Part shown: in pieces, positions 47,230 to 56,001 of the stretch
How positions within the stretch are numbered: the stretch's first letter is position 1
Layout of the letters: every line of letters starts with the position of its first letter
NCBI RefSeq assembly: GCF_001021045.1
Contig: NZ_CP011545.1
Span: 1,674,001-1,738,000 of the forward strand
DNA: 64,000 nucleotides
Direction: 5' to 3'
From: Corynebacterium testudinoris
GTDB taxonomy: Bacteria; Actinomycetota; Actinomycetes; Mycobacteriales; Mycobacteriaceae
The notes under the pieces: model-generated
The model's database searches: none
Told to the model about the DNA's origin: nothing
Seen by the model: the letters and a program-made list of their open reading frames with translations, nothing else
Made by a program: the position numbers and the translations under genes

Positions 47230-48526
47230 TGGCCCTCACCCACTCCGAAGCCGCCCGGTCAGACAGGGCCACCAACGCGACGATCCACGTGGCGATGTTG
47301 AGAATCCCTAGGGCACCCTCCGCGATAGTGCTGCTCATCGGGGTGAGCATCGTCGTTATCCCATTGGAGGCCAACAACGCCAGCATGCCGTAGCGCGCCC
47401 AGGAATGCCCACGAAGGAAAAAGACCATGAGCGGCACGTACACCACGAGTGACATCCCTGCCGCCAACCCCGCGGCCAAGAGCCGAACATCCCACTCCGC
47501 GGTCTCCGGAATGTCAGGCACACCCTGCTGGATCACCTGCGCCAGCTGCAAAAGCACACCCGTGATGATGGCTGCCACGGCGAGGATGAACACGGCCGGA
47601 CGCGGCGGAGCGTCGACACTTTCTTTGTCATGACTGGCTGCCGCCACCCACGGCGGGGAACTCGTCTCCCGGACCCCGTTGACATCCACCACAGGCAGAT
47701 CACCATCAGTATCGATGAGGTCGCCACCACCGTTGCGATGGTGGTAACCCGTGGAAAAGTCCTTGATGACCTCGACGTGGACATCACGATCGGCGTGACA
47801 CAGCGTCTCCACGATGTAGTCTCGCTCCGCGTCCGTATCCGCATCAATCTTGTGGGTCACCTGCCACGTGAACAGAGACAGCCCGACCGCCCGGTCGTAG
47901 GTACCCGCGGCCAACCAATCCACCTGGTGTCCACCCGGCAGAAACCAGCCTTCCGGACAGCGCCACAGCCGGACGTGATGACGCTTGGAGGGACTATCTT
48001 CCACCTCCTGTTGGAACGCCACATCCTGGGCCCGGCCAAAGAGATTCAGCGAGCTGACCGGCGCCTCCGGATAGGAACGCCCCGTCAACGAGCTGGTGAT
48101 GATTCGCCGGGAAGACTTAAAAGTAATCGGATCCGCGACCACCCACCCGGCCTTCTCGAATGCCGCCGCGACCTGTTCACCCGAGCCGCGGAGCGCAAGA
48201 TTCACCGGATCGCCGAGCAACCCGTCGGGAGTGCGCACCCGGCCAATGAAATAGTCCGGCACATACAGCTCGGTGAGCACACGGTGCAGTCGCGGCAGCG
48301 CCAAATACGCGGCAACCACCCAGAACCCAATGAGGTACAGCAAATGCCACCAGTTGAGGTTCAACCCCGAGCGGATGAGCAACACCGCAAACCACGCGGA
48401 AAACACCGCCCCGAAAACGAAAAACACCCAATCGACGACCGCCGCCACCGAAAAAGGCTTGGATCGGTGCGCGTGCACCTTCTCCTGCCGAGGCGCGTAG
48501 CTCGGCGCGGGCTTACTCTGCGGCAT
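47177..48526 (-). CDS. LssY C-terminal-domain membrane protein
   Basis: 449 residues: two N-terminal helices (VAAVVDWVFFVFGAVFSAWFAVLLI, WWHLLYLIGFWVVAAYLAL), a soluble domain of about 200 residues like LssY_C (PVNLALRGSGEQVAAAFEKAGWVVADP, WRCPEGWFLPGG, DADTDAERDYIVETLCH), and four C-terminal helices. Function is unknown in corynebacteria. ATG 48526 is chosen because the soluble and membrane parts are complete from there. It follows xerC by 17 bp and overlaps the M23 gene tail to tail. Confidence 0.78.
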   Translation of the reverse strand: MPQSKPAPSYAPRQEKVHAHRSKPFSVAAVVDWVFFVFGAVFSAWFAVLLIRSGLNLNWWHLLYLIGFWVVAAYLALPRLHRVLTELYVPDYFIGRVRTPDGLLGDPVNLALRGSGEQVAAAFEKAGWVVADPITFKSSRRIITSSLTGRSYPEAPVSSLNLFGRAQDVAFQQEVEDSPSKRHHVRLWRCPEGWFLPGGHQVDWLAAGTYDRAVGLSLFTWQVTHKIDADTDAERDYIVETLCHADRDVHVEVIKDFSTGYHHRNGGGDLIDTDGDLPVVDVNGVRETSSPPWVAAASHDKESVDAPPRPAVFILAVAAIITGVLLQLAQVIQQGVPDIPETAEWDVRLLAAGLAAGMSLVVYVPLMVFFLRGHSWARYGMLALLASNGITTMLTPMSSTIAEGALGILNIATWIVALVALSDRAASEWVRAIKVHRRQEKVSGGSSGH

Positions 48527-48543
48527 GCCCGCCAGAATACCGC

Positions 48544-49419
48544 TCAGGCCCGCGGGTGAGCGCGCGAAAACACTTCCTTGAGACGTTCGGCAGACACGTG
48601 CGTATAAATCTGCGTGGTTTGCAACGACGAGTGCCCCAGGAGCTCCTGCACCACCCTCAGGTCTGCCCCACCCTCCAAGAGGTGGGTCGCGGCCGTGTGC
48701 CGCAATTCGTGCGGCGTAACATGCTGCCCACTGACCTGGCCGGCTTTCTCCACGACGCGGCGCACCTGTCGCGGATCGATCCGACTCCCCCGCACTCCCA
48801 CGAATAAGGCTGGCGTGTCCTTGGCCATGCCGGGCCTGGCCTGCTCCAGCCAAGTGGAAACCGCCGTCGCAGCGGCCTCCCCGAACGGAACGGTGCGCTC
48901 CTTATTTCCCTTGCCGGTCACCCGAGCAGTCCGCCGGGACAAGTCCAGATCCTTAACGTCGAGCCCCGTCAGCTCGGACACGCGCATTCCCGTGGCATAC
49001 AGCAGTTCCAGCATCGCGCTATCCCGATAAAACTCCAGCTCGTTGGCGGAAGCGGCATTGCCCACGAACTCCCCCGCCTGCTTCTGCCCCAAGACCTCAG
49101 GCAAATGACGACCGACCTTCGGACTGACCAAGCGAGCAGCAACATCCTCGGCAAGATACCCCTGGCGCCGCGCCCACGCGGAAAAAGCTTTCACTGAGGC
49201 GGTACGCCGAGCCAATGTTGCCCGCGACTTACCCTCCGCCGCCGCCTGACCAAGCCACGCGCGCAGCGAGTTCAGATCGAGCTCACCGAAAGTCGGCGTC
49301 GCCAGCGCAAGATCGAGCAGATCAGAACGGTACCCCCGCACCGTCGCCTCCGAGCGGCCCTGGACCAGCCGCATATGCTCGGCAAAGTCCTCGATGGCCT
49401 CCTCGATCTGCGTGCTCAT
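48544..49419 (-). CDS. xerC: Tyrosine recombinase XerC
   Basis: Resolves chromosome dimers at dif together with XerD. 291 residues: SAM-like core-binding domain (IEDFAEHMRLVQGRSEATVRGYRSDL) and catalytic domain with Arg in ATGMRVSELTG, His-x-x-Arg in HELRHTAATHL, His in LGHSSLQTTQ and Tyr in IYTH. Its position beside dprA/comM is the usual corynebacterial one, though here an island intervenes. ATG 49419 is preferred; an in-frame ATG three codons upstream exists. Confidence 0.92.
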   Translation of the reverse strand: MSTQIEEAIEDFAEHMRLVQGRSEATVRGYRSDLLDLALATPTFGELDLNSLRAWLGQAAAEGKSRATLARRTASVKAFSAWARRQGYLAEDVAARLVSPKVGRHLPEVLGQKQAGEFVGNAASANELEFYRDSAMLELLYATGMRVSELTGLDVKDLDLSRRTARVTGKGNKERTVPFGEAAATAVSTWLEQARPGMAKDTPALFVGVRGSRIDPRQVRRVVEKAGQVSGQHVTPHELRHTAATHLLEGGADLRVVQELLGHSSLQTTQIYTHVSAERLKEVFSRAHPRA

Positions 49420-49832
49420 GTGGCACATGCTACCCGCGACTTTGCCAGTCGTTGCTCACTCTTCCTGCCGAAGACGCAAAGCGGCGGAGGAGATCACGAT
49501 GGATTGTGAAACGCGCTACCAGCATTTGAAGCGCTCCCACGATCGGCGCGCGGAAGTCGGTGCTTAAGGCACCCATGACGCTATCTTCAGGGGAAAAAAT
49601 CTAGTTGCCAGACGCTCGCCGAAGTCGCAAAACACTACATTAAGCTCCTAAAAGAAAGTTCGGGTGTATGCCGGCTCGATATCGTCCACAATCCGCCGCC
49701 GCCATTTGGAACAGGAAATAGCCCCGCGCGGAAGAGAATGTCGGGGCACTCTCCGTGCGCCGTGAATTTCCACGCGATGAGGCAAGCCAGCGATCTGCTT
49801 CCCAGACCACAGGAGAGACAATCAATGGAAGG
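49420..49832. other. Intergenic stretch between xerC and the AbiE toxin gene; no gene seen
   Basis: Lower-GC DNA with no convincing coding region on either strand. It contains an imperfect hairpin around GGTGCTTAAGGCACC near 49560. It marks one side of the accessory island that separates xerC from dprA. Confidence 0.6.
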
Positions 49833-50672
49833 TTAGATCCAGCGTCCGGCATCCGGTGACCATTCACCTGTGACGGTCGACTCCACAGAGGAGAGGATTG
49901 GGTTGGCCAATGCCCCGGCAATGCGAAGGGCATCATTGACTTCAATGATCTCCTGTCGAGGCCCGACTAGCCGGCCAATCAGCCTGGCGTAGCCGTCGGC
50001 CCACTCCGAGCTAGGCAGATGGAGTTCGAGGGGAAGAGTGAGGCAACGGATCTTCGCCTGGATGCGTAGGGCTTCAGCCAGTCGGGAAGCGTCGGCCCTC
50101 AGCTCCAAGGAGATGAGGGCGATGTCGTATAGATCTCGGTAGCGGGTAGAAGGTTGCTGACGCAGATCATGAAGCTCATACATGGCGGAGATTTTGTCGG
50201 CGATCTGGTTTTCAATCGGGTAAGAACGGATCCTGTAGTCCCTTTCCATGAATTCCAAATCGAGTCCATCAGAGCGCTGCACGTCCAAGAAATCGGTTAC
50301 GACCGGCACATGGAGGTCTCCACTGACGTCAATTCCGAATTCCACAACCGGGTTAACACCATAGAAGATCTCGACCTTCAGGCTTATGTTGTCGATTGCA
50401 CCGTCGACTGTCTCGCCTTTCGGTATAGAAACGTTAAATCGGTATGACCCGATCTTCGCTTCGTCCATGGTCTCGACCAGTTCAGCAGCCGCCCGGAGAA
50501 AGGAAGTCGGATCATCTTGGCGGTATAGGTCAAGGTCTCGGGTGTGCCGTGCACCGGGAATCTGGCAGTAAAGGTTGGTTCCTCCTTTGAGGACCCATCC
50601 TTGGTCGCGGCTCATCAATTCAGCGAGAAACAGCTCCCGGAAGAATCGGTTGTAGGCTTCGTTGGGATTCAT
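49833..50672 (-). CDS. AbiEii/AbiGii-type nucleotidyltransferase toxin, 5' end likely frameshifted
   Basis: 279 residues of the DUF1814 family: WVLKGGTNLYCQI with the KGG motif, ARHTRDLDLYR (the nucleotidyltransferase D-x-D), LKVEIFYGV and IENQIADKISAMYEL. Type IV AbiE toxins modify nucleotides and cause growth arrest. The current ATG overlaps a short upstream frame as ATGA. That frame (25 codons, starting at 50746) reads like the missing N-terminal helix, so a frameshift near 50680 probably split the gene. Toxin activity is therefore uncertain. Confidence 0.82.
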   Translation of the reverse strand: MNPNEAYNRFFRELFLAELMSRDQGWVLKGGTNLYCQIPGARHTRDLDLYRQDDPTSFLRAAAELVETMDEAKIGSYRFNVSIPKGETVDGAIDNISLKVEIFYGVNPVVEFGIDVSGDLHVPVVTDFLDVQRSDGLDLEFMERDYRIRSYPIENQIADKISAMYELHDLRQQPSTRYRDLYDIALISLELRADASRLAEALRIQAKIRCLTLPLELHLPSSEWADGYARLIGRLVGPRQEIIEVNDALRIAGALANPILSSVESTVTGEWSPDAGRWI

Positions 50673-50746
50673 CCCCTGCTCGCGAGCTTCTTTTTCAGGG
50701 CATCGCGGATCTGCCCGTCTGTACGTTTCGGCTTACTCTTCCGCAT
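50669..50746 (-). pseudogene. Out-of-frame N-terminal segment of the AbiEii toxin
   Basis: ATG 50746 opens a 25-codon frame (MRKSKPKRTDGQIRDALKKK, then LASRG and stop) overlapping the ancestral abiEi stop by 14 bp, as expected for a coupled toxin start. In the toxin frame the bases before ATG 50672 read E-Q-G, giving a KKLA..EQGMNPNEAYNRFF sequence typical of the family. A few lost bases within GCGAGC near 50683 would explain the break. Confidence 0.6.
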
Positions 50747-50937
50747 CCTCGCCCCTGAAATCTTCACTGCCCGAGAAATCTTGGAAGTCGACGTCAGCGA
50801 ACTGGTGGGAAGGCAAGCTGTCGAAGGCTGAAGTGCAAGCCTCGGCGGCATCTAACACCTTCTGCTGCAAAGCCGGATTGTGAGTGACTGTGTCCGGGAT
50901 CTTAGCGAAAGCTTGTCTGATAGCAGGACTGCTGTTT
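50733..50937 (-). pseudogene. Displaced C-terminal end of the AbiEi antitoxin gene
   Basis: The reverse strand reads SPAIRQAFAKIPDTVTHNP, then ALQQKVLDAAEACTSAFDSL, and ends DFRGEDAEE with TAA at 50735-50733. The frame has no start. When the IS256-family element 50938-52390 and one copy of the 9-bp target duplication are removed, it joins in frame to the abiEi gene (LETLNS-SPAIRQ), completing a 336-codon antitoxin. Confidence 0.85.
50929..50937. repeat. Target-site duplication, left copy
   Basis: CTGCTGTTT, identical to 52391-52399 at the right end of the insertion sequence. A 9-bp duplication is within the 8-9 bp typical of IS256-family insertions. Confidence 0.85.
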
Positions 50938-52390
50938 GGTTACGTCCTCTAGCGTGGTGTATCTGTAACTGCCGGTGACGGCCCCATTAACAACATGGGC
51001 GACCACCGCAGGTACCTTTCGAATCAACTCCTACATCTCCTCGAAAGGACAACCCACGATGGCCGCTGGCCCTCATTCTATCGACCCGACCACCTACCTC
51101 GACGACCTGCTCTCCCAGGCCTCGCCGGACCTGATGCGGCAGATGCTCCAAGGCTTCATCAACCAAATCCTGTCGACCCAGGCTGATCAGGTCTGCGGCG
51201 CGGACTACGCCACCACCAGCGATGCTCGCGTCAACACCCGCAATGGCTATCGTCACCGCGACCTCGACACCCGGGTGGGCACCATCGACGTCGCCATCCC
51301 GAAACTACGTACCGGCTCCTTCTTCCCCGACTGGCTGCTGGAACGACGCACCCGGGCCGAACGAGCCCTGACCACCGTGATCGCCACTTGCTACCTCAAA
51401 GGGGTCTCTACCCGCAGGATGAACGACCTGGTCGCCACCCTCGGGATTAACAACCTGTCGAAGTCGCAGGTATCTGAGATGGCCAAGGATCTTGACTCCA
51501 TGGTCGAGGATTTCCGCACCAGACCATTGGATACCAGCCCGTATCTCTACGTCTCGTGTGACGCGTTAACCATGAAAGTCCGCGAAGGCGGACGGGTGGT
51601 GAAAACCTCAGTGTTGTTGGCCACCGGGGTTAATGCTGAAGGCTACCGGGAACTATTGGGCATGCAGGTCGCCACCGCAGAGTCATCAGCGTCGTGGACT
51701 GGGTTCTTCCGGGATCTTAAGGCTAGGGGCCTTAACGAGGTGTACCTGGTTACTAGTGACGCGCACCTGGGTATCCAGCACGCGATCGGCGAGGTATTAC
51801 CGAATGCGTCGTGGCAGCGGTGTCGGACCCATTTCGCCAAGAATCTCTCCGGGCTGGTGTCGAAGACGCAGTGGCCGACGTTATCGGCGATGTTCCACAC
51901 GATCTTCCAGCAACCGGATGCAGCTTCGGTGTGGGCCCAGGCGAGGGAGGTCGTGGCGTTTTGCGAGCAGAGGTTTCCGCATGTTGCTGACTATCTGGAG
52001 GAGTCGTTGGATGAGCTGTTGGCGTTTACGAATACGCCGAAGTCGGTGTGGAAGAAGGTGTGGTCGAATAACCCGACTGAGCGGCTCAATCGGGAGATCC
52101 GTAGGCGTACTGATGTCGTGGGCATCTTTCCCAATCGTGAGGCTGTGATCCGTTTGGTGGGGGCTGTGTTGGCGGAGCAGCATGATGATTGGATTCAGCA
52201 GAAACGGTATATGTCGTTGACGAGTCTGGAGCAGACCAAGACGCTGATGAGGGCTAATATCATTGACCCCGGTGAGAAGGCTGAGGTGGTGGCATGAACC
52301 GGTATTGGTATCGGGTGCGTGCCGGCCCTTGGGGTCGTTAGGTCTTCAGTTTTATCGAAAGGTAGAAACACCACTCCCGCGGACTTGACC
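50938..52390. mobile_element. IS256-family insertion sequence, 1453 bp, intact
   Basis: Terminal inverted repeats start GGTTACGTCC on the left and GGTCAAGTCC on the right (complement of 52390 backwards) and match at 20 of the first 27 positions, including a shared GTGGTGT. The element contains one complete transposase gene and is flanked by the 9-bp duplication CTGCTGTTT. It has inserted into abiEi. Clean ends and an unbroken gene indicate a recent insertion. Confidence 0.9.
51059..52297 (+). CDS. IS256-family transposase
   Basis: 412-residue Mutator-type DDE transposase: N-terminal QMLQGFINQILSTQADQVCGADY, RNGYRHRDLDTRVGTIDVAIPKLR, first Asp in YLYVSCDALTMKVREGG, second Asp in VTSDAHLGIQHAI with WQRCRTHFAKNL, and the Glu near SNNPTERLNREIRRRTDVVGIFPN. 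All catalytic elements seem intact. ATG 51059 has GAAAGGA about 8 bp upstream. The last 100 bp overlap the read-through tail of abiEi on the other strand. Confidence 0.93.
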   Translation: MAAGPHSIDPTTYLDDLLSQASPDLMRQMLQGFINQILSTQADQVCGADYATTSDARVNTRNGYRHRDLDTRVGTIDVAIPKLRTGSFFPDWLLERRTRAERALTTVIATCYLKGVSTRRMNDLVATLGINNLSKSQVSEMAKDLDSMVEDFRTRPLDTSPYLYVSCDALTMKVREGGRVVKTSVLLATGVNAEGYRELLGMQVATAESSASWTGFFRDLKARGLNEVYLVTSDAHLGIQHAIGEVLPNASWQRCRTHFAKNLSGLVSKTQWPTLSAMFHTIFQQPDAASVWAQAREVVAFCEQRFPHVADYLEESLDELLAFTNTPKSVWKKVWSNNPTERLNREIRRRTDVVGIFPNREAVIRLVGAVLAEQHDDWIQQKRYMSLTSLEQTKTLMRANIIDPGEKAEVVA

Positions 52391-53205
52391 CTGCTGTTTA
52401 GCGTCTCGAGGACACTTTGCATTTGCTCTTGGACGGGCTCAAGTGACTTTTCGATGATTTCTTGCAGGACCCTCATCTGCTGTGTAGATAGCGGCGGCAT
52501 CGCGGCTAGTACTTGGGACACGGTCTCCTGCAGATTTTCCACCGTCGGTGAGGACGGATCTGGGCCGGGAAATCGCTCATCCAACCACGCTCGTGCTCCC
52601 TGAGCAGTATGCGGAGTGATGGTGAGGATATCGGCTATATCTACCAGCGCATCGGCGACTTCAGCGCGGGTCGCCGCACGCTGTTGAAGGATATCGCCGA
52701 TCATGTCGGTGAGATGGCCAGGTTCGTGACCGGCTCGGGCCAGATCAGTGAGCGTGCGCACGGCGGTGGTCACCGGCATTCCATCAACGACATCCCAGTC
52801 CTCGTCATTGAGCTTAGAAATACGGAACATAACCTCGGGTTGGCGACTTTGACGCCTAGTAGGCACAGTGAAACATATTTGGGGGCTTTCAAGATCTCCG
52901 ATGCGGCGCAGTTCGGCAGCGGATTCGTGCGACACCACGGCGCTCGGTTGCGCACCAAGGCGGTCAGCCGCCATGGCTTTTGGCTCCAGTGCCATCCACT
53001 GCGCTCGGACCTCGGTCGCCGATGACCACCCGGCAGAGGTGGAAAGATACACCCCGGAGCGCACCCGTGCTAGAACTGACTTTTCCACCAGTCGACTGAG
53101 CATAACGGCCGAGACCCCGGCCTCCTTTGCTTGAGCTGTGGTCACCATCCCCCATTGTTGGGAAGCGAGATCCAACACAATCTCTGTCGCCGTTGCGGTC
53201 TTCAT
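52195..53205 (-). CDS. AbiEi-type antitoxin with C-terminus replaced by IS-derived read-through
   Basis: Residues 1-60 form the AbiEi winged helix-turn-helix (WGMVTTAQAKEAGVSAVMLSRLVEKSVLARVRSGVYLS), followed by the AbiEi-like central domain. The native frame ends at the insertion point after LETLNS (52391). The last 65 codons (from RVKSAGVVFLPFDKTED) are read from the inserted IS. The original C-terminus is at 50733-50928. By chance the chimera and the rebuilt antitoxin both have 336 residues. AbiEi represses its own promoter and neutralises the toxin; DNA binding by the intact N-terminus may survive while toxin transcription is now separated by the IS. Confidence 0.8.
   Translation of the reverse strand: MKTATATEIVLDLASQQWGMVTTAQAKEAGVSAVMLSRLVEKSVLARVRSGVYLSTSAGWSSATEVRAQWMALEPKAMAADRLGAQPSAVVSHESAAELRRIGDLESPQICFTVPTRRQSRQPEVMFRISKLNDEDWDVVDGMPVTTAVRTLTDLARAGHEPGHLTDMIGDILQQRAATRAEVADALVDIADILTITPHTAQGARAWLDERFPGPDPSSPTVENLQETVSQVLAAMPPLSTQQMRVLQEIIEKSLEPVQEQMQSVLETLNSRVKSAGVVFLPFDKTEDLTTPRAGTHPIPIPVHATTSAFSPGSMILALISVLVCSRLVNDIYRFC
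52391..52399. repeat. Target-site duplication, right copy
   Basis: CTGCTGTTT immediately after the right end of the IS256-family element, matching 50929-50937. It lies within the coding sequence of abiEi. Confidence 0.85.
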
Positions 53206-53207
53206 AC

Positions 53208-53291
53208 TGCAAATATTACACCATCTGATATTTCCGAAGCGATCTACCCCTGTCATCCACTGCAAAAATTACACATTAGGATATTTTTGCA
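53208..53291. promoter_or_regulatory. Two operator-like inverted repeats upstream of abiEi
   Basis: Repeat A (53208-53236) has arms TGCAAATAT and ATATTTCCG; repeat B (53261-53291) has a perfect pair TGCAAAAAT and ATTTTTGCA. Both share TGCAAAWATTACAC and start 53 bp apart, about five helical turns. Repeat A ends 3 bp from the abiEi ATG. AbiEi proteins characterised elsewhere bind paired inverted repeats in their promoters, so these are probable autorepression sites. Confidence 0.7.
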
Positions 53292-53347
53292 GACTATAGA
53301 GGGCCCGGTTGAGCACTAGATGTGCGGACCCTGTACCCGTTATATCC

Positions 53348-54505
53348 CTAACCATTCTGCCGGCACCACTTGGACCCTTCCCGACGGACAAGTTGGCGGC
53401 TTTCCAACTCCATCAGGACGTGCATCGTCAACGGGACAGTCATTCCAGCTGACCGGGCAACGTCGTGGGTGATTGATCCCTCCGGAGGGCAGGCGTCGAA
53501 CACGCGGAGTTCGTTGCGGCTCAGCGATTGGGCGGGAGTTGCCGCGAAGGCCAACTCGTATTGCTCCTCCACGTCGAGGGCACCCACTGCTCCGAGGAGT
53601 GCACGAATGTCGTCGGCACCAGTGATCAATTCCGCTCTGCCCCGCTTGATCCGCTCGTGGCATCCCAAGGACCCCACCCCGGTAATCGGGCCAGGTATAG
53701 CCATGGGAATCCTGCCCAAACCTTCCGCCCAGCTGAGGGTATTCAGAGCACCGGATCTCCAGGCAGCCTCCACGATGACCGTCCCTTGGGTTAGTGCTGC
53801 GACCAGCCGATTGCGGGTGAGGAAGCGGTGGCGTTGGGGCGGAGTTCCCGGGGGATACTCACTGATCAGACAGCCGCGATCGGCAATCCGATCAAACAGC
53901 GCCGCATTTCGGGCGGGGTATGACTGGTCGAGGCCGCAGGCGGCAACGGCAATGGTCACTCCCCCGGAGTCGAGCGCGGCTTCCTGCGCTACGGTGTCTA
54001 TCCCTAGCGCCCCTCCGGAGACAACCGTCCATTGGTGGGCGGCGAGTCCGCTGACGAGTAGCTTCGTGGCTTCCATCCCGTAGCGGGTGAGGGCGCGCGT
54101 GCCCACGATGGCGACCGATTGCGCAACAGCCGCCTTCACGTTGGCGCCCCGCACCCACAAAGCGTGTGGTGCTACGGCATCCGCTTGGTAGCTGCGGACG
54201 TGGTCACTGCGTCCGGTGGCAGCGAATCCGAAAGCTTGGTCCAGTTCTGCGGCAGGCCACTCGGGGCTTTCGGGGCTGATCAGCCGGGCGCCGATCGTTT
54301 CCGCCTGCGCCAAATCTTCTGATGCCCGGTCCCAGGCGTAGCGCGACTCGGTTTGGGAATGGAGGTCTCCCAGCCAACTGGCGCGCGTCCGTACGCCGTG
54401 GGCAATCTCGTCGGCGTCGCGACCAGCATTAAGAAGTGCTTGCAGTGGCCGGCTGGGGCCTTCCACCACTCGACTGAGGTAGGCCCATGACTTCAGGGTG
54501 CTCAT
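53348..54505 (-). CDS. dprA: DNA-processing protein DprA
   Basis: Loads RecA on incoming single-stranded DNA during transformation. 385 residues: N-terminal helical region, Rossmann-like core with AIVGTRALTRYGMEATKLL, SGGALGIDTVAQEAALDSGG, YPARNAALFDRIADRG, ISEYPPGTPPQRHRFLTRNRLVAALT and GRIPMAIPG, then a C-terminal winged-helix (LSRNELRVFDACPPEGSITHDVARSAGM). Its ATG overlaps the comM stop by 4 bp. Confidence 0.93.
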   Translation of the reverse strand: MSTLKSWAYLSRVVEGPSRPLQALLNAGRDADEIAHGVRTRASWLGDLHSQTESRYAWDRASEDLAQAETIGARLISPESPEWPAAELDQAFGFAATGRSDHVRSYQADAVAPHALWVRGANVKAAVAQSVAIVGTRALTRYGMEATKLLVSGLAAHQWTVVSGGALGIDTVAQEAALDSGGVTIAVAACGLDQSYPARNAALFDRIADRGCLISEYPPGTPPQRHRFLTRNRLVAALTQGTVIVEAAWRSGALNTLSWAEGLGRIPMAIPGPITGVGSLGCHERIKRGRAELITGADDIRALLGAVGALDVEEQYELAFAATPAQSLSRNELRVFDACPPEGSITHDVARSAGMTVPLTMHVLMELESRQLVRREGSKWCRQNG

Positions 54506-56001
54506 ATCCGTCCCCCTCTCAGCGTCACGGCAAGGCCGAGGTGATCCAGCGTCGGTTGGTCTTCTCCCGCGAGGTCAGCGAGCGTCCAACTGAGCTTCAA
54601 GGAGCGATCGACGCCGCGTTGGCTGATTCTGCCCTGTGCCAGCAAGCCGCCAAGGTAGGCCATTGCATCCTCTGTGGCGGGGTGGTGTCGCCGAAGCAGA
54701 TGCGGATCAACGTGGGCATTGACGCTGGCGGCCAGCCCGTGGCTCGACCACCGTTGTTCGGCTTTGGCCCTGGCCGCTGCCACGCGATCTGCGATGGTGG
54801 CAGAGCTCTCGCCGAAGGCAGTGGTGAGCACCGCGCCGGACCCGGTGAGGTTGATGACCATGTCGAGGCGGTCGCGGAGCGGGCCGGAGAGATTGTTGAG
54901 GTACGTGGCGCGCTGGCGGGACGTGCAGGTGCACCTCGTGGGGTCATCCGCGGCGCAGCGGCACGGATTGGCAGCCAGCACCAACTGAAACTGGGCGGGA
55001 AAAGTTACCTCCCGCCGTGAGCGGACGAGTCGAACTTCTCCGTCCTCAAGGGGAGTTCGCAGGCTGTCGAGGATGGCCGCGGGGATTTCGGAGACCTCGT
55101 CGAGAAAGAGCACTCCGTGATGGGCCAGGCTGACTGCCCCGGGGTGGGCGCGCCCGGAGCCACCGCCGAGGAGTGCGGCCCTTGACACTGAATGGTGTGG
55201 GGCGATGAATGGTGCACGGGTGACCACGCCGGATTCACCGACCACAGAATGCACGACCGTCGCTTCCAGACAGCTTTGGGGAGTCAGCGGAGGCATGATG
55301 CTGGGCAGACGCGCAGCGATCATGGACTTTCCTGAGCCGGGTGGGCCGATCATGATGAGGTGGTGTCCCCCGGCGGCCGCGACTTCGGCGGCGAGTTTGG
55401 CCTCTGATTGACCGGCGATGTCGGAAAAGTCGGCGGTGGGAGCTGGTGCTGGCTGGGTTGGCTGTCCACTGGCTTCGAAGAGCATCGTTTCTCCCAGTGC
55501 CCACTCCCACGCCTGTTGGAGGGATGACACGGGCAAGACGTGCAGGCCAGGGACGAGCATGGCTTGTTCCTGGCTAGCGGCGGGAATGAGCGCATACTCG
55601 CAACCGTGGGCAGCGGCGGCAAGCAGCGACGGCAGAACTCCCGGGACTTCCCGGACTGAGCCGTCCAGCCCCAGCTCCCCGAGGACGATCGTGCGATCGA
55701 GTTTTGCCGTGGCGCCGGGCTCGCGTGCTGCGAGGACAGCCAGTGCCGTGGGAAGGTCAAAGTGTGAGCCAGCTTTGCGCAATGATGCTGGCGACATCGA
55801 CACGACGATCTTCGTCTTTGGCCACGCTAGCTGGGAGTTGGCGAATGCCGTGCGGATTCGATCACGCGATTCACTCACGGCGGCGTCGCCAAGGCCCACG
55901 ACGTGGATGCCAGGAAGCCCAGGTCCGATGTTCGCCTCAACGGTGACGATGCGGGCATCGACGCCCTCCAGGGCAGTGGTGAAGCTCCTACCGAGCGCCA
56001 T
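54502..56001 (-). CDS. comM: ComM/YifB-family Mg-chelatase-like AAA ATPase
   Basis: Helicase that promotes branch migration during transformation in characterised homologues. 499 residues: N-terminal Lon-protease-like S5 fold (ARIVTVEANIGPGLPGIHVVGLGDAAVSESRDRIRTA), Walker A IGPPGSGKSM near residue 220, Walker B GVLFLDEVSEIP, a Cys-rich insertion (NPCRCAADDPTRCTCTSRQ) and C-terminal Mg_chelatase_C. It is the middle gene of the yraN-comM-dprA operon. Confidence 0.92.
   Translation of the reverse strand: MALGRSFTTALEGVDARIVTVEANIGPGLPGIHVVGLGDAAVSESRDRIRTAFANSQLAWPKTKIVVSMSPASLRKAGSHFDLPTALAVLAAREPGATAKLDRTIVLGELGLDGSVREVPGVLPSLLAAAAHGCEYALIPAASQEQAMLVPGLHVLPVSSLQQAWEWALGETMLFEASGQPTQPAPAPTADFSDIAGQSEAKLAAEVAAAGGHHLIMIGPPGSGKSMIAARLPSIMPPLTPQSCLEATVVHSVVGESGVVTRAPFIAPHHSVSRAALLGGGSGRAHPGAVSLAHHGVLFLDEVSEIPAAILDSLRTPLEDGEVRLVRSRREVTFPAQFQLVLAANPCRCAADDPTRCTCTSRQRATYLNNLSGPLRDRLDMVINLTGSGAVLTTAFGESSATIADRVAAARAKAEQRWSSHGLAASVNAHVDPHLLRRHHPATEDAMAYLGGLLAQGRISQRGVDRSLKLSWTLADLAGEDQPTLDHLGLAVTLRGGRI

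Follow-up and report, generated by a model that had tools for sequence, protein, structure and literature searches.

Introduction

The closest described systems to the locus reported here are the AbiE (type IV) toxin-antitoxin pair AbiEi/AbiEii of Streptococcus agalactiae and the Mycobacterium tuberculosis loci Rv2827c/Rv2826c (MenT4) and Rv1045 (MenT3), which are undamaged. As in S. agalactiae, the locus has a winged-helix antitoxin gene (abiEi) upstream of a nucleotidyltransferase toxin gene (abiEii). By analogy with the family, AbiEi would ancestrally have repressed the operon and neutralised AbiEii. AbiE systems are characterised by autorepression at paired promoter repeats, by an antitoxin that counteracts the toxin with no binding between the two, and by phage resistance. 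The locus lies in a 64,000-nucleotide stretch of Corynebacterium testudinoris DNA (contig NZ_CP011545.1, positions 1,674,001 to 1,738,000; hereafter the window, on which all coordinates are given), where an insertion sequence (IS) of the IS256 family interrupts abiEi. A literature search at the level of titles and abstract openings found no report of this locus.

We propose that this AbiE operon, on an island flanked by dprA and xerC, is decaying, that its IS-trimmed AbiEi is perhaps functional, and that toxin damage came first or has recurred, a reading that we consider fairly probable.

Results

An interrupted antitoxin gene

Two pieces of sequence flanking the IS are identified by sequence comparison as one interrupted 336-codon abiEi, with the downstream, orphan piece as its true C-terminus, because two relatives carry both pieces collinearly. 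The first is P0002, an uninterrupted 336-residue AbiEi from a database (source label "lgn", taken to be assembled from public reads; it has 16 member sequences and a single contig of 1843 bp), and the second lies in the genus genome G036.

52391-53205, minus strand: abiEi upstream piece, 271 whole codons, with winged helix and conserved antitoxin domain (PADLOC AbiEi 6.2e-74; PF13338 1.7e-13; 97% to P0002)
50733-50928, minus strand: orphan 3' piece of abiEi, the native C-terminal tail (91% to P0002 residues 273-336; 47% to the G036 relative)
52195-53205, minus strand: abiEi frame as present now, 336 codons (271 native and 65 antisense from the IS), within the open reading frame 52195-53265
50938-52390, plus strand: IS256-family insertion sequence, 1453 bp, with terminal inverted repeats and a 9-bp duplication
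51059-52297, plus strand: IS256-family transposase, 412 codons from the ATG used (PF00872 5.9e-133; NF033543 1.3e-100)
50929-50937, no strand: target-site duplication, left copy, CTGCTGTTT
52391-52399, no strand: target-site duplication, right copy, CTGCTGTTT

The two pieces were compared with P0002 separately, without being joined. Residues 1-271 of P0002 match the upstream piece at 97% (263/271) and residues 273-336 the orphan piece at 91% (58/64), both without gaps and in collinear order across the insertion site, while a single uninterrupted G036 gene matches both, at 70% for the upstream and 47% for the orphan piece, likewise in this order. The IS sits in codon 272, with 9 bp duplicated. 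A first-pass annotation of the sequence had assigned the orphan piece to the AbiEi C-terminus and called for a database comparison; that comparison succeeded, and the nearest homologues, whose C-termini might have differed from 50733-50928, match it. The rebuilt gene of 1011 bp was also calculated correctly (815 + 196 bp, or 336 codons plus stop). The "66-codon piece" of that annotation is the same piece, the figure adding the stop and the codon that spans the insertion site to the 64 whole codons.

The whole codons of the orphan piece include no ATG (possible starts are two TTG and one GTG), and PADLOC and Pfam profile searches with the piece alone gave no family match. Nor did it have a significant match in the other genus loci tested besides G036, because the tail is too variable. 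L037, an uncultured Corynebacterium sequence that was the single partial relative from a lookup of the upstream AbiEi piece in genome contigs (78% over AbiEi residues 1-156), was considered as an empty site and rejected as too distant from this strain.

The inserted element

The element, its inverted ends (19/26 positions match) and its duplication, with identical CTGCTGTTT flanks, are as first annotated. IS256-family elements duplicate 8-9 bp of target, and the chance that 9 bp agree exactly at one given position is, by arithmetic, about 4e-6. The predicted transposase is of the Mutator/IS256 DDE type (PF00872 443.9 bits; NF033543 transpos_IS256 336.7 bits against a cut-off of 150), and on these profiles, together with the ends and duplication, the element is assigned to the IS256 family, in agreement with the earlier assignment.

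There are three full copies of the element in its own genome at 98-100% identity (the window copy and two others at 98%), and the other two carry their own target duplications, of 9 bp and 8 bp. The same genome holds three right-end-only remnants (L004, L005 and L006; 102, 100 and 42 bp at 99, 79 and 93% identity), one of them (102 bp, 99%) differing very little from the full element. Some match to the element is present in 118 of 242 genus genomes, its own genome counted, and with two candidates scored per genome the next nearest element listed is at 85%, in G013. Four plasmid records match at 78-82%.

What the insertion removes from AbiEi

The P0002 model superposes on a solved Streptococcus antitoxin (6y8q) over residues 5-213, and the insertion point lies beyond this part. 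The 65 C-terminal residues lost have no conserved column in an alignment of AbiEi proteins (25 of 40 from the search, short or weak ones left out) and are predicted with low confidence. When the PDB was searched by sequence with the AbiEi piece or profile, the matches were limited to the winged-helix region of 6y8q and 9hlo and, at 0.07, a ribosomal protein. Judged from the alignment and the model, all that the IS takes away is a poorly conserved tail, the conserved, confidently predicted part of AbiEi being kept. A folded antitoxin/repressor may still be made because the gene stays open for 336 codons, 271 of them native. On the same grounds, we infer that the tail-swapped AbiEi folds and may be made, bind its operator, repress, and neutralise the toxin. 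The suggestion of a functional split in the antitoxin is thus not supported, since the lost residues are unconserved and outside the solved fold and the gene stays open. The 65 in-frame codons that the IS gives to the truncated gene (52195-52390) restore the native length of 336 by coincidence.

A separate lesion in the toxin gene

The identification of the pair as AbiEi and AbiEii holds (PADLOC and Pfam, as listed). The toxin frame, however, had been taken as intact, and it is without its conserved N-terminal helix, which lies upstream in a different frame.

50669-50746, minus strand: short frame encoding the conserved N-terminal segment of AbiEii, in a different frame from the remaining toxin (like segment in frame in P0124/P0162 and in P0043-P0047)
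49833-50672, minus strand: abiEii toxin, 279 codons from a downstream ATG, with the nucleotidyltransferase core but not the first helix (PF08843 3.2e-19; PADLOC AbiEii 4.8e-61; structure of the relative P0043)

The TGA of the short frame overlaps the ATG at 50672, and the break falls in a short single-base run. By comparison with relatives, the 279-codon toxin is N-terminally short and its start at 50672 looks like an internal methionine. A complete toxin reading frame, as seen in relatives, is absent from this locus. The lesion is independent of the IS, and the locus is a damaged AbiE rather than a working one, because the toxin N-terminal segment lies in the other frame.

Among the best 120 of 243 matches to the toxin (90% clusters, proteins above 400 aa removed), 73 of 101 clusters start at least 18 residues earlier, and a stricter text motif for the N-terminal segment has 53 matches among those listed. 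With those proteins included, 92 of 120 clusters were extended N-terminally by 18 residues or more, a figure discarded as too generous because it took in 19 proteins above 400 aa. These 19 relatives among the matches listed (P0126, P0128 and others) mostly have both AbiEi and AbiEii Pfam domains, and are thus antitoxin-toxin fusions. Conservation of the segment in the AbiEii alignment (42 of the best 120 of 243 matches) is biased, because nearly all members were chosen for having it. With the toxin as query, a PDB sequence search gave no match at E 0.01, a scan of viral contigs found no relative, and plasmid tblastn gave 90 records, all below 60% identity.

Might the frame break be a sequencing or assembly error, the toxin being really undamaged? 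Single-base runs are a usual place for such errors, and P0124 and P0162 carry the segment in frame. Against this, P0042, whose contig is 173,880 bp long, is identical to the window toxin frame at 278 of 279 residues and begins at that same internal methionine, although it is known from protein alone and might represent a draft assembly of a very closely related strain. In the G036 relative, too, the frame is broken at that point. We regard an error as very unlikely.

Damage to the toxin gene recurs in relatives. In G036 (L008/L038), the nearest relative found in genus genomes, the antitoxin is uninterrupted and the toxin N-terminus is likewise out of frame. Of the first 99 residues of the window toxin, 95 are identical in P0124, a 193-aa protein from one contig, and 94 in P0162, a 135-aa protein from three contigs (the longest 45,886 bp); in both, the N-terminal segment is in frame. 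After codon 99 both depart from the toxin and resume out of frame near its 3' end (window 49857). Known from proteins alone, the two appear to share one out-of-frame internal deletion, of about 518 bp by arithmetic. In another species, G009 (L021, about 190-1460), the toxin match falls into two pieces on either side of 1.3 kb of inserted DNA bearing IS3-family transposase frames (NF033516 1.8e-14 and 3.3e-89). The damage therefore comprises the frame break here and in G036, the internal deletion in close relatives and an IS3-type insertion in G009. Two toxin searches (best 120 of 243 and all 60), both of which listed 90% clusters, had among the matches listed no complete AbiEii of at least 90% identity.

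As the run is out of frame here and in the G036 lineage and in frame in other relatives, one could also see in it a regulatory switch instead of decay, toggling between full-length and short re-initiated toxin, with AbiEi kept as an uncoupled, tail-tolerant antitoxin/repressor. This we rate as very improbable.

Upstream region and expression

Paired repeats upstream of abiEi are, by analogy, probable AbiEi operators, an assignment that draws on AbiE family knowledge (PMC3985639; PMC7319586).

53206-53233, no strand: putative AbiEi operator repeat beside the abiEi start (28-nt repeat, 82% identical, 53-bp spacing)
53259-53292, no strand: second putative operator repeat, with 10-nt perfect inverted arms ending at 53292 (28-nt copy at 53259-53286)

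Shorter repeats with the same 53-bp spacing lie upstream of abiEi in L038 and L037. The abiEi and toxin genes, adjacent or overlapping in relatives such as L009-L015, are kept apart in the window by the IS, which separates the toxin from the operon's upstream region, as first annotated. A scan for sigma-70-type promoters, which may miss corynebacterial ones, found no minus-strand site in 50672-53205 and none upstream of abiEi; its one site, against a shuffle mean of 1.6, is not upstream of the operon. The minus strand of 49400-53700 gave no terminator-like site, and RNA folding around the toxin start gave nothing beyond shuffles (z 0.12).

These results bear on the view that a single event disabled both halves, the IS inactivating the antitoxin and silencing the toxin by separating it from its promoter. 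The 1.5-kb IS does sit between the upstream repeats and the toxin, and no sigma-70-type site intervenes, which says little given that none was found upstream of abiEi either. On the other hand, only an unconserved, low-confidence tail is lost, this view has no need of the separate toxin lesion, and the lack of a terminator-like site leaves read-through possible. A single disabling event is, to our judgement, unlikely.

A somewhat stronger, still doubtful case can be made that the short toxin is made: the frame 50746-50669 would be translated, ribosomes would pass to the 279-codon toxin, and the trimmed antitoxin would hold it in check. The overlap of stop and start is consistent with this, as are the nucleotidyltransferase core, the invariant alignment columns kept by P0042 (itself part of that alignment), and the mostly silent substitutions against G036 (proportions of nonsynonymous and synonymous differences, pN 0.18 and pS 0.64). 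But the conserved first helix is missing, and the pN/pS comparison is with a distant relative, most of the substitutions being perhaps older than the lesion.

A probable island in the dprA-xerC interval

48544-49428, minus strand: flanking xerC-type tyrosine recombinase gene (TIGR02224 5.1e-93, 311.7 bits, below its cut-off of 335.15; NF001399 282.1, above its cut-off of 279)
53348-54505, minus strand: flanking dprA gene (TIGR00732 4e-60, 202.7 bits, above its cut-off of 191.15)

The AbiE genes are probably an added island, because the dprA-xerC gap is far smaller in sampled genomes: the two protein matches are 3922 bp apart in the window, and in 23 of 24 other genus genomes sampled they share a contig and are separated by no more than 1248 bp (429 bp or less in 22). 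G158, also among the 24, had no xerC match at threshold. The guanine plus cytosine (GC) content is 0.54-0.58 in the AbiE pieces, compared with 0.63 in the window and 0.64 in both flanks. The 404 bp between toxin and xerC (49429-49832) have a GC content of 0.56, are single copy in the genome (E 0.001) and have no gene assigned; no tRNA was found in 48000-55000.

Discussion

In light of these lesions, how might the operon have decayed? An IS256-family element transposed into codon 272 of abiEi, swapping the last 65 native codons for antisense codons of the IS. With the operator side and both AbiEi domains present in sequence, the tail-swapped AbiEi may still act. The toxin, without its proper start and behind 1.5 kb of IS, would be N-terminally short if made, and would depend on transcription through or out of the IS, perhaps with re-initiation at the ATG overlapping the short-frame stop. 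If toxin damage came first or recurred under selection, an IS in the antitoxin gene would be tolerable. The recurring toxin lesions suggest toxin loss before the IS insertion, and they probably made antitoxin damage tolerable, the order itself being inferred.

Several points weigh against the decaying-operon reading. The P0002 model is of moderate quality (mean predicted local distance difference test score, pLDDT, 72.9; predicted template modelling score, pTM, 0.57), and for the helix at 241-270, which immediately precedes the insertion point, block means are no higher than 56-62. The foreign tail might make AbiEi unstable, since truncations of S. agalactiae AbiEi, each with just one of the two domains, were unstable and lost repression (PMC3985639). 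The C-terminal domain of Rv2827c is described as 55 residues longer than that of AbiEi, with extra features at its end (PMC7319586); Rv2827c aligns to the P0002 model only over residues 13-251 of 293, and by analogy long AbiEi proteins may have a folded C-terminal extension. The orphan tail differs from P0002 at 6 of 64 residues and the first 271 residues at 8 of 271 (Fisher p 0.03), faster divergence that could reflect relaxed constraint after insertion or simply a fast tail. Of the 101 toxin clusters among the matches listed, 28 lack the 18-residue extension: 10 begin 0-17 residues before the window toxin and 18 begin after it. Finally, P0002 is seen without its toxin gene.

The original observation is correct and looks ordinary in kind, an anti-phage toxin-antitoxin pair falling into disrepair. 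To it are added an uninterrupted relative, an insertion point that lies past the conserved fold of the antitoxin, and independent toxin lesions. It is a clear case, with the uninterrupted relative known, of a transposon in the variable AbiEi tail that perhaps does little harm, and the repeated toxin hits in this lineage and its kin fit toxin loss preceding antitoxin loss. For annotators, the toxin start at this locus is misleading.

Comparison with known systems

The element is like other IS256-family elements of Corynebacterium in its 1.45-kb length, single Mutator-type transposase and 8-9 bp duplication, and elements on two C. efficiens plasmids are 81-82% identical to it; unlike the others, it has its 98-100% copies in its own genome. 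The operon resembles S. agalactiae AbiE in its putative paired operator repeats and in the match of the P0002 model to 6y8q, and has at most 19% identity to Rv2827c/Rv2826c and Rv1045 in the rows compared. Unlike S. agalactiae AbiE, the corynebacterial AbiEi has a long, variable C-terminal extension, which in the window is replaced by sequence read from the IS, and the first helix of the toxin lies out of frame.
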